A stretch of 64,000 nt of DNA, taken from NCBI GenBank assembly GCA_019639235.1, contig JAHBSG010000019.1:1-64000 (forward strand), written 5' to 3'. This DNA comes from Acidobacteriota bacterium. Lineage in GTDB: Bacteria; Acidobacteriota; Blastocatellia; Pyrinomonadales; Pyrinomonadaceae. A model generated the notes under the pieces. It had not been told where the DNA came from, did not search any database, and saw only the letters and a list, made by a program, of their open reading frames with translations. Each line of letters begins with the position of its first letter. The stretch's first letter is position 1. Of the stretch, positions 3,574-39,463 are shown piece by piece. The translations under genes and the position numbers were made by a program.

Positions 3574-3660
3574 TCGAGAAATTCCCGCCTCGCAAAGCAA
3601 CCATTTTCGCGGCTCGCGGCACTAAGGATTCATTGAACCCGGCAGAGTGTTCGCTGTTGT

Positions 3661-9360: not shown

Positions 9361-9508
9361 AGGAATACCCTCCACACCGCATCTCGAAGAATGCGTATGA
9401 CCTCAAGTTAGACAAGTTTTTCTGGTTTTTGTTCCCGCCGTCCGGTACGGCTTGTTCGCGATGAACCGTTAGTGCCGCGGGCCGCGGATTTGGTTGCTTT
9501 GGCCGTAA

Positions 9509-10362: not shown

Positions 10363-12498
10363 TCAATTCAGGAATTCAGTAGCGGCGGGTTCCGTAAGGA
10401 CCGGAGCATCGAACGCGGGCTGCTCTTCCACAAGGTTCCAGACCTCAAATAGCTCGGCGGGGCATTCGGTGATGAAACGGGAAGGTTTTTGGAGCACGGT
10501 CTGCCGGTTGTAGTCGGTCATCAGCAGCGGATAGGTCAGGTAAAGCTCGTCCTTTGCTCGCGTCAGGGCAACGTACCAAAGCCGGCGTTCCTCTTCTTCG
10601 GCATCGATCTCGCGGAGCGACTTGGGCGAGGGGAACTTGCCCTCAGCGGCCCAGATGATGAACACCGTTTTCCACTCAAGCCCCTTTGCCTGATGGACGC
10701 TGGTGAGCGTCAGCAACTCGTCGTCCTCGCCGCCTTCGACCACCTCCTCGCCGACGATCGGCTGCGGCTCCTTGAACCGCTCGGTCGCGAGCAATGCAAG
10801 CTCTGAGAGCAACCCCTCGGTCGTCTCGTATCGCTGGGCAAACTGCGCAAGGCCGCGGATGTCTTCGCTCCGGGCTTCGGCATTCTCAAAATTTTCGAGG
10901 AGATATTGCTCGTAACCATTCTCAAAGATATGCGTGATCTGGCGTGCCGGGCGGTCGCGGAGCTCATCAGAGACGAGCGTTTCGAGCAGCTTGATGAAAT
11001 CCTGGAACGGCCTGCTCGAAGCAAGCCTCGGCACCGACCGGACCGCACGCGTACCGGCGTCCTTGATGACACTCAAGGCCGTCACCGCCGATTCATTTGT
11101 TGACTCCACCCTCAATGCAGGCAGGGACGCCTGCTCTCCGGCCGAAAGAGCCTCAAAAACCCGGTTGGCCGTTACGTTGCCGACGCCGGGTATCAGCTTC
11201 AGGATGCGTTTCCATGCGAGTTCGTCACGCGGGTTGATGAGCACGCGGAGATAGGAGACGACGTCCTTGATGTGTGCCTGCTCGAAGAACCGGACGCCGG
11301 ATTGCACCCGATACGGAATGTTCCGCCGCGAGAGTTCGAGCTGAAGCTCGATCGAGTGGTAATGCGAGCGGTAGAGCACTGCGATGTCTTCGAGGCTCGT
11401 GCCCTCATCGCGGAGTTCGAGTATCCGCGAGGCGACGAATGCCGATTGCTGCTCGACGTCAGAGCAGGGCACAAGTGCAGGCATGAAGTCCCGCGATCGC
11501 TTAACGGCCTTGAGCATCTTCGGGAACTGCCGCCGGTTCGCTGCTATCGAGGTATTGGCGAGGCCGAGAATCTCCGACGTTGAGCGGTAGTTCGTTTCGA
11601 GCTTGAAGAGCTGTGCCTCCGGGTAACGCTTTGGGAATTCGTAGATGTTCGTAAATTCCGCTCCGCGCCAGGCAAAGATCGACTGGGCATCGTCGCCGAC
11701 GACCATCACGTTGCGATGCTTTACCGCCAGCAGGTCGATGATCTCGGCCTGCAGCCGGTTCGTGTCCTGATATTCATCGACGAGGATGTGCTGAAACTGC
11801 TCGGCGTAAAGCTCGGCGATCTCGCGTTTTTCGACCAGGAGCTGCTTGAGCTTTAGCAGCAGATCGTCGTAGTCCATCACGTTCCGCTCGTGCTTGCGGG
11901 CCTGATATACAGAATCGACCCGCTTTATCTGCGAGGTCAGCATCTCAAAATACGGGTACTTTCCCGCGATCACGTTCTCAAGCGGCAGGTCCGTGTTGTT
12001 GGCATAGGAGATGATGTCCTGAATGACCTCGGCCTTTGGGAAACGCTTTGCTTTCGTATCGATGGCGGCTTCGTCGATGCAGACGTTGATCAGGTCCTTG
12101 GCGTCCTCGCTGTCGAGAATCGAATAGTTCGCGTCGTAGCCGAGCGGAGAGGCGTGGCGGCGGAGAATGAGGTTGGCAATGCGGTGAAACGTCCCGCCCC
12201 AAACGCGGTGGACGTTCTGCGAGCCAGTCAGCGATTCGACCCGGCGGAGCATCTCACGCGACGCCCGATTCGTAAAGGTCGCAAGCAATATCCGCTGCGG
12301 CGAAACGCCCTGCTCAAGCAAATACGCAACGCGATAAGTTATCGCCCGCGTCTTGCCCGTCCCGGCACCCGCAACCACCAGCGTCGCCTTCGGCTGAGCG
12401 GTCACGACCGCAAACTGCTCCTCATTCAGCTCGCTTTTATACCGAGTAAGCCGTTCCGGCAACGAACTCACATCCCGCTTGATAACATAGCGTGCCAT
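10363..12498 (-). CDS. UvrD/PcrA/Rep-family superfamily 1 DNA helicase
   Basis: A 711-residue 3'-5' helicase of the UvrD/Rep type, acting in repair, replication restart or removal of recombinases. Walker A is AGAGTGKT at 43-50, Walker B DEYQDT near 240, motif III GDDAQSIFAWRG near 265, motif V SVHQAKGLEW near 600, and motif VI WYVALTRAKDELYL near 643. Length matches full 1A/1B/2A/2B enzymes. Within the 2B region (about 452-461) the peptide AGEQASLPA is encoded by a palindromic repeat (see 11115-11143). The neighbours do not reveal a specific pathway. Confidence 0.95.
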   Translation of the reverse strand: MARYVIKRDVSSLPERLTRYKSELNEEQFAVVTAQPKATLVVAGAGTGKTRAITYRVAYLLEQGVSPQRILLATFTNRASREMLRRVESLTGSQNVHRVWGGTFHRIANLILRRHASPLGYDANYSILDSEDAKDLINVCIDEAAIDTKAKRFPKAEVIQDIISYANNTDLPLENVIAGKYPYFEMLTSQIKRVDSVYQARKHERNVMDYDDLLLKLKQLLVEKREIAELYAEQFQHILVDEYQDTNRLQAEIIDLLAVKHRNVMVVGDDAQSIFAWRGAEFTNIYEFPKRYPEAQLFKLETNYRSTSEILGLANTSIAANRRQFPKMLKAVKRSRDFMPALVPCSDVEQQSAFVASRILELRDEGTSLEDIAVLYRSHYHSIELQLELSRRNIPYRVQSGVRFFEQAHIKDVVSYLRVLINPRDELAWKRILKLIPGVGNVTANRVFEALSAGEQASLPALRVESTNESAVTALSVIKDAGTRAVRSVPRLASSRPFQDFIKLLETLVSDELRDRPARQITHIFENGYEQYLLENFENAEARSEDIRGLAQFAQRYETTEGLLSELALLATERFKEPQPIVGEEVVEGGEDDELLTLTSVHQAKGLEWKTVFIIWAAEGKFPSPKSLREIDAEEEERRLWYVALTRAKDELYLTYPLLMTDYNRQTVLQKPSRFITECPAELFEVWNLVEEQPAFDAPVLTEPAATEFLN
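11115..11143 (-). repeat. 29-base palindromic element inside the helicase gene
   Basis: Read on the minus strand: GGCCGGA, two bases, GCAGGCGTCC, two bases, GCCTGCAT. The core pairs GCAGGC with GCCTGC. The same element with only the two-base spacers changed lies in the dehydrogenase-like gene at 39199-39227, in the same reading frame. Confidence 0.75.
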
Positions 12499-38123: not shown

Positions 38124-38275
38124 AGTGAGCGGTGAGCTGTGAACAGTGAGCAGTGAGCAGTAAGCAGTAAGCAGTAAGCAGTAAGCAGTAAGCAGTAAGC
38201 AGTTAGAAGGCTAACAGCTTGATCCGAAAAATGACGTCCACAACTCTGCTTGCTGCTTACCTCACTGCTCACTTT
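38124..38275. repeat. Inverted heptamer repeat array
   Basis: From 38124 to 38206 there are about twelve tandem 7-base units: degenerate GTGAGCN copies, then CAGTGAG twice, CAGTAAG six times in a row (38158-38199) and CAGTTAG. After a short spacer, 38244-38275 carries the same unit inverted (TGCTTAC, TCACTGC, TCACTTT). The two arms can pair over at least 14 bases. It begins just after the PilZ stop and ends six bases before the next ATG. Confidence 0.92.
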
Positions 38276-38281
38276 TAACGT

Positions 38282-39463
38282 ATGAAAATTCTCGTACTCG
38301 GAGCGGGCCGCATGGGACATGGTGCGGCCTTTGATCTTGTCCACAACTCGCCGGGCGTTGAACAGGTAACGGTTGCCGATGCCGACCTGAAAAAGGCGGA
38401 GGCGGTCGCCGAGGCCGTCGGCACCTCGCGGATAGACGCCCATCATGTTGACGCCGCCAACCATTCGGACATAGCCCGCCTGATGACCGGCCACGACTCG
38501 GCCATCTCATGCGTCAATTATTGGTATAACGAGTCGCTTTCGCGAGCGGCGATCGAGACCCAAACCAACTTCTGCGATCTCGGCGGCAACAATTACGTCG
38601 TCGATGCCCAGCTTGCTCTCGACGATGATGCAAAGGCCGCCGGGATAAACATCATTCCGGACTGCGGCCTCGCTCCGGGAATGGTCTCGATCCTTGCAAT
38701 GCACGGCGCAGCCCGATTCGAGCGGCTCGACGAGATCCACATTCGCGTCGGCGGACTGCCGCAGCGGCCCGAACCGCCGCTCGATTACCAGCTCGTATTT
38801 TCGGTCGAAGGCCTTATAAACGAATACATCGAGGTCGCCCGCGTTATCCGCAACGGTGAGATAAAGGAGGTTCCGTCGATGACCGAGCTCGAATCGCTAG
38901 AGTTCGAGGGTTTTCCGCCGCTCGAGGCTTTTCAGACCTCCGGCGGCACTTCGACCCTGCCCGATACATTTCTCGGGAAGATCAAGGAGCTCGACTACAA
39001 GACCATTCGCTACGCCGGCCACTGTGAGAAGTTCAAGGCGATGATCGACCTCGGATTGTGCTCGAGTGAAGAGATCGTTGCCGACTTCGTCAAGGTGAAG
39101 CCCCGCAAGGTCTTCGGCGAACTTCTGCAAAAACACCTGCCCGCTGATGGCCCGGACTACGTACTCGTCCGGCTCGAATTCGTCGGAACGGGCTTGGCGG
39201 CCGGACCGCAGGCGTCCTCGCCTGCATCGCCGCAGGGCGGCGAAACCGCCCGTCTCCGCTACGACATCGTAGACAAGCTAGACCCCGAAACCGGCCTCTC
39301 GGCAATGATGCGAACGACCGCCTTTCCGGCATCGATCATCGCTCAGATGATGGCACGCGGCGAGGTCCTTGCCCGTGGAGCAACCCCGCAGGAAAAAGCT
39401 ATCGACCCGGAAAAATTTGTCGCCGAGCTCGCCCGGAGGGACATCCGGATCATGGAATCGTGA
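38282..39463 (+). CDS. Saccharopine-dehydrogenase-family oxidoreductase
   Basis: A 393-residue NAD(P)-dependent enzyme. The Rossmann motif opens the protein (MKILVLGAGRMGHGAAFDL), and the family marker PDCGLAPGM is near residue 125-133. This order matches saccharopine and lysine 6-dehydrogenase relatives, which act on amino-acid substrates; the exact substrate cannot be set. Near residues 305-317 the peptide AAGPQASSPA is encoded by a palindromic repeat (39199-39227) and looks like an insertion between strands VRLEFVG and RLRYDIVD. The ATG directly follows the heptamer array and lacks a clear Shine-Dalgarno. Confidence 0.88.
   Translation: MKILVLGAGRMGHGAAFDLVHNSPGVEQVTVADADLKKAEAVAEAVGTSRIDAHHVDAANHSDIARLMTGHDSAISCVNYWYNESLSRAAIETQTNFCDLGGNNYVVDAQLALDDDAKAAGINIIPDCGLAPGMVSILAMHGAARFERLDEIHIRVGGLPQRPEPPLDYQLVFSVEGLINEYIEVARVIRNGEIKEVPSMTELESLEFEGFPPLEAFQTSGGTSTLPDTFLGKIKELDYKTIRYAGHCEKFKAMIDLGLCSSEEIVADFVKVKPRKVFGELLQKHLPADGPDYVLVRLEFVGTGLAAGPQASSPASPQGGETARLRYDIVDKLDPETGLSAMMRTTAFPASIIAQMMARGEVLARGATPQEKAIDPEKFVAELARRDIRIMES
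39199..39227 (+). repeat. 29-base palindromic element inside the dehydrogenase-like gene
   Basis: GGCCGGA, CC, GCAGGCGTCC, TC, GCCTGCAT: identical to the helicase copy (11115-11143) at 25 of 29 positions. The stem GCAGGCG/CGCCTGC is perfect around TCCT. It is read in the same frame as in the helicase, giving AGPQASSPA here and AGEQASLPA there. Confidence 0.8.

Follow-up and report, generated by a model that had tools for sequence, protein, structure and literature searches.

Palindromic repeats of a probable RAYT-associated REP/REPIN family lie in frame within conserved genes of Acidobacteriota

REPs are extragenic by name, and the classic case of repeats residing in frame within genes is that of the RPEs. 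The latter are short palindromic repeats of Rickettsia that have entered unrelated proteins in frame, according to the summary given in PMC3733652, and the same text (Di Nocera et al. 2013) describes GTAG- and CGTC-tagged REPs and dimers of these inside ORFs, in frame and in several species, with UvrD/REP helicase and tRNA synthetase genes among the hosts. It furthermore mentions Xanthomonas recB, in which distinct REPs occupy nearly the same position, one case that is comparable to the loops occupied by several families described below. Pseudomonas REPINs have been analysed in extragenic space (PMC3116915; PMC6006769), RAYT genes of subclass 2.4 themselves contain REPs inserted in frame, and atypical REPs without GT[AG]G have been described for some RAYT subclasses (PMC6006769).

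The repeats analysed here share with the REPs in the text of Di Nocera et al. the occurrence of both single units and dimers in ORFs and the helicase and tRNA synthetase hosts, but they differ from these by being found in Acidobacteriota, by showing no GTAG/CGTC tag, by a strong bias for a single frame and by loops that are filled by several families. Inverted REP doublets forming hairpins and a RAYT gene between inverted REPs are likewise known from the REPIN/RAYT systems; in contrast to the Pseudomonas REPINs, however, a clear minority is here located in unrelated conserved genes, and the stem is flanked by GGANC rather than GT[AG]G. With the RPEs they have in common the in-frame insertion in unrelated protein genes, whereas they are set apart by the different phylum, by the linked transposase family and by inverted doublets with a second hairpin in each arm, which are the rule outside genes. 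The likeness to RPEs proposed in an earlier note on this DNA is apt as regards the mode of action, but the repeat is a REP/REPIN with a cognate RAYT, and the different phylum and the RAYT link argue against membership of the Rickettsia families. No report of REPINs inside Acidobacteriota genes was found in the literature searched, which comprised few subscription papers and the main text of PMC3733652. In-frame REPs as such are already known, and what is new is their presence in Acidobacteriota, the association with a RAYT in the absence of a GTAG tag, the frame bias and the repeated occupation of the same loops.

The window, a stretch of 64,000 nucleotides from a genome of the Pyrinomonadaceae, holds two copies of a 29-mer, GGCCGGAGAGCAGGCGTCCCTGCCTGCAT and GGCCGGACCGCAGGCGTCCTCGCCTGCAT, which the earlier note had recognised as a palindrome read in the same frame in two unrelated genes. 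Both copies are indeed present where they had been placed (Table 1); 25 of 29 bases are identical, all four differences being inside the two-base gaps, and 100 dinucleotide shuffles gave no match. The observation is confirmed. The stem proper consists of the inner GCAGGC..GCCTGC, with GGCCGGA as an unpaired 5' flank, and the helicase copy is not a stand-alone element but one arm of a longer inverted doublet, while the dehydrogenase gene contains a single REP unit. None of the other REP families tested is found in the window, which therefore has no intragenic REPs of the tested families besides these two. The window also contains a heptamer tandem repeat, AGTGAGC/AGTAAGC, at 38124-38207 just upstream of the dehydrogenase gene, and an inverted repeat pair of 41 nt (3593-3633 and 9461-9501, 85% complementary, 5.8 kb apart) that is possibly another dispersed repeat.

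Table 1. Repeat units and host reading frames in the window
Feature	Position	Strand	Evidence
REP core GGCCGGAGAGCAGGCGTCCCTGCCTGCAT, REPIN 5' arm in helicase gene, read AGEQASLPA	11115..11143	-	
Decayed opposite REPIN arm, GACCGGACCGCACGCGTACCGGCGTCC against GACTGGACCGCACGCGTCCCCGCGTGC	11036..11062	+	alignment to the insert of congener G020 and to the REP arm
Whole REPIN, 108 bp = 36 codons, read through in helicase	11036..11143	-	alignment, orthologue loops
PcrA/UvrD-like SF1 helicase ORF, 711 aa, REPIN host	10363..12498	-	
REP core GGCCGGACCGCAGGCGTCCTCGCCTGCAT in dehydrogenase gene, read AGPQASSPA	39199..39227	+	
Second hairpin of REP unit, CGCCGCAGGGCGGCG	39228..39242	+	sequence; counterpart in intergenic units
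Saccharopine-dehydrogenase-like ORF, 393 aa, host of second copy	38282..39463	+	

A search of the whole genome (3.84 Mb) allowing three mismatches, as proposed in the earlier note, gave two further copies, hence four in total, and none in the reversed control. All four sit in long ORFs in one strand-and-frame and read (A/T)G(E/P/T)QASxPA, namely SAGEQASLPAL in the helicase, AAGPQASSPAS in the dehydrogenase, TTGTQASPPAS in a protein of contig C23 and LTGTQASSPAP in one of contig C34; the first two hosts were searched against family libraries, while the latter two, named by sequence motifs and general knowledge, are presumably an M1-type and an M14-type peptidase. Three of the four copies carry a second hairpin (CGCCGCAGGGCGGCG in the dehydrogenase, TCGGCACGAGGTGCCGA in C23 and CCGAGCGTAAGCTCGG in C34), and outside long ORFs, at C12:28498-28607, lies a doublet whose two arms show the same asymmetry as those of the helicase REPIN. 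A shorter core gives 11 matches in the genome against 4 in reversed controls, and anything beyond five or six copies is chance-like.

The family is far more abundant in some relatives; the number of copies per genome ranges from 0 to 114 across the genus (0 or 1 in reversed controls) and reaches 27 to 114 in some genomes as compared to about six in the window's own. In relatives the core is mostly found outside genes and often as inverted doublets, i.e. REPINs, an arm typically consisting of GACTGGAACGCAGGCGTCCCCGCCTGC and, after it, another small hairpin such as ACGCCGTGGCTTCCGCGGCGT or TGAGTGCGAAGCACGAA. Taking a REP to be an imperfect palindrome of 20-40 nt and a REPIN to be inverted doublets about 60-150 nt apart, the core is a short imperfect palindrome of this kind, and the intergenic doublets of the relatives, the C12 doublet and the helicase element are inverted doublets. 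Furthermore, a Y1 transposase that exceeds the NCBIfam cut-off for REP-associated tyrosine transposases lies between inverted copies of the same repeat in the congeners L094/L228, and a close relative of it is likewise located between inverted copies in L186. The window's own genome holds two relatives of this RAYT (56% and 46% identity), flanked by variant repeats only (GACTGGAGCGGCAAGCATCC and AAACGGGAACGCGGGCATCTCTGCCCGC), whereas most of its other RAYTs are surrounded by different inverted repeats, which indicates the coexistence of several REP systems. At the foot of the hairpin the copies seen have GGANC as flank and not the guide tetranucleotide GT[AG]G. The window's genome has few copies of the exact core, about six, and the REPs at its RAYTs have diverged, so that the family seems close to extinction there. 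Exact matches to the REP pattern also occur in rumen and gut contigs of Bacteroidales/Prevotellaceae (L142, L161, L164, L169, L177, L196, L205, L207 and L215).

The earlier note assigned the helicase copy to the 2B region of a UvrD-like helicase, in agreement with a phmmer alignment to PcrA (1pjr), which puts the insert there, at about residues 447-460 of the query and directly behind the VTANRVFE helix. The helicase of congener G020 carries a complete REPIN, GACTGGAACGCAGGCGTCCCCGCCCGCATTG...GCACGCGGGGACGCGTGCGGTCCAGTC, with which the window copy aligns over its whole length, the far arm having decayed. The same loop contains REPINs of a GCAAGC..GCTTGC variant in G009 and G032, another inverted doublet, CAGAACCACC...GGTGGTTCTG, in G004 and SEPPALAGG-type inserts in G031, G001, G019, G005 and G033, while it is short in other families of the class. 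The orthologue comparison that had been suggested shows an insertion, as the residues are missing from orthologues in other families.

A similar picture emerges for the other hosts. In the M14 peptidase the site is empty in eight congeners (L339, L342, L343, L344, L346, L348, L350 and L351), and in others it is occupied by a doublet, by GTR(A/T) variants or by members of the QAS or a GGNPTGREG family. At least six different types of repeat have been taken up by the M1 peptidase loop among 14 congeners; in L316, L317 and other families this loop is closed or almost closed. The dehydrogenase insert is present in the window's genome and in G031, other repeats are found in this loop in L048, L053, L054, L060 and L062, and in many congeners the loop comprises a few residues only. 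Judged by sequence comparison, the copies are insertions relative to the orthologues, and the claim that a small palindromic repeat can enter genes without breaking them holds up, with orthologues that do not have the residues and copy numbers in the genus far above chance. Short tandem repeats similar to the AGTGAGC/AGTAAGC heptamers lie inside the dehydrogenase loop in the congeners L066 and L072. A second loop of the M1-type peptidase has PLLRKEGS, a repeat-like peptide, in the window's genome (L003, the C23 gene) and a QAS-family REP in the opposite orientation in L311.

It could be argued that AGxQASxPA is shared by coincidence or because it is a functional motif of proteins, the palindrome being incidental, and the use of one frame by all four copies of the window's genome would agree with this. 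Such an explanation is however exceedingly improbable, since shuffles give no matches, the same DNA forms an intergenic palindromic doublet elsewhere, and orthologues lack the residues or have unrelated repeats in their place; shuffles, reversed controls, empty sites and intergenic copies together rule out chance and protein convergence. Co-option of the insertions, which would then provide a protein function in their hosts, is likewise very unlikely. Inserts common to sister species, as seen for the dehydrogenase with G031, the M1 peptidase with G010 and the helicase with G020, show that they have been retained for some time, which fits co-option, but many orthologues have no insert or one that is quite unlike it, and the helicase REPIN shows decay of its far arm.

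The frame used in genes was counted for 209 distinct copies, leaving out loci fetched by protein, with coding potential scored by a codon-usage model on the flanks and the element itself excluded. Although none of the six frames of the consensus contains a stop, 17 of the 21 copies that look coding on both sides are read in the QAS frame. The nominal binomial probability is 1.8e-10, but copies in orthologues are not independent, and with one count per protein about 10 of 14 use this frame (a hand count; binomial about 9e-6, hand-worked). Exceptions include a DUF4153 protein in L163 and the second M1 loop in L155. Peptides read from the other frames contain Trp, Cys, Phe or numerous Arg residues, which is consistent with purifying selection. 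Gene-borne copies make up about a tenth of this sample, which was also hand-picked, a fraction far smaller than that of coding sequence in bacterial genomes.

A second palindromic family, TCAGAACCGCCTGCGTTAGCGGGCGG, is abundant in the relatives G003, G008, G011, G014 and others, with a maximum of 135 copies per genome and none in reversed controls. Its consensus has stops in two of the six frames, and 27 of 97 distinct copies look coding, a share that is not a genome-wide estimate because single copies from one genome are over-represented among those scored; 14 of the 27 read S(E/V)PPAxAGG, 13 read PPAxAGG(S/T)D and none use other frames. No RAYT flanked by this family was found among the RAYT loci examined.

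The bias for frame and loop might alternatively reflect a target-site preference of the transposase and not selection on the host protein, and the occupation of the same loops by several repeat families could be taken to suggest this. We nonetheless consider it unlikely and favour selection, since the families in question are unrelated and even tandem repeats are found in the same loops, and since the two arms of an intergenic doublet have no clear preference for being in phase (18/41 and 6/14 are). Another notion, which we regard as unlikely, is that the REP sequences of this lineage have been shaped so as to do no harm when translated, making protein loops a regular refuge where one unrelated REPIN family takes the place of another and new protein segments are added; it gains no support from the intergenic doublets, given that they show no clear preference of phase.

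Hence our preferred reading, to which we give a probability of about 0.9, is that a RAYT-associated REP/REPIN family has this 29-mer as its core, that most of its surviving copies are intergenic and that a minority is kept in protein loops in one frame. Most likely the RAYT would copy REPINs or single units by way of single-stranded hairpins, and insertions into genes would mostly be lost. The survivors would be those in tolerant, variable loops and in the frame giving a small, uncharged and flexible peptide (GTQASxPA), and these would later decay. Selection acting on inserts that are presumably translated and tolerated, rather than target choice, would thus account for the bias, the loop-borne copies having been retained because the host protein is not broken.

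Further hosts of inserts are valine--tRNA ligase, phosphoglycerate dehydrogenase, phosphoglucomutase/phosphomannomutase, a xanthine dehydrogenase small-subunit-like protein, aldehyde dehydrogenase and an MmeI-like methyltransferase. The valS ORF at L158:4965-7928(+) encodes 988 aa and reads without a stop through SEPPALAGG...PAHAGGSD and GTQAPLPA...GACVPAR, apparently two REPINs from two families. As this is the only valS above cut-off in that genome, for which completeness is not given, and as it reads through two insertions, the function of the host protein probably survives, to judge from its sequence.

Two repeat families are accordingly found repeatedly inside conserved genes, including the only full-scoring valS of one genome. 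Repeat-derived peptides such as QASxPA, SEPPALAGG and PPATAGGSD in predicted proteins can mislead annotation and motif searches. Since the same loop is filled by several families in sister species, we have a natural experiment in which selfish DNA becomes protein sequence, and the lineage can show which loops tolerate such DNA.
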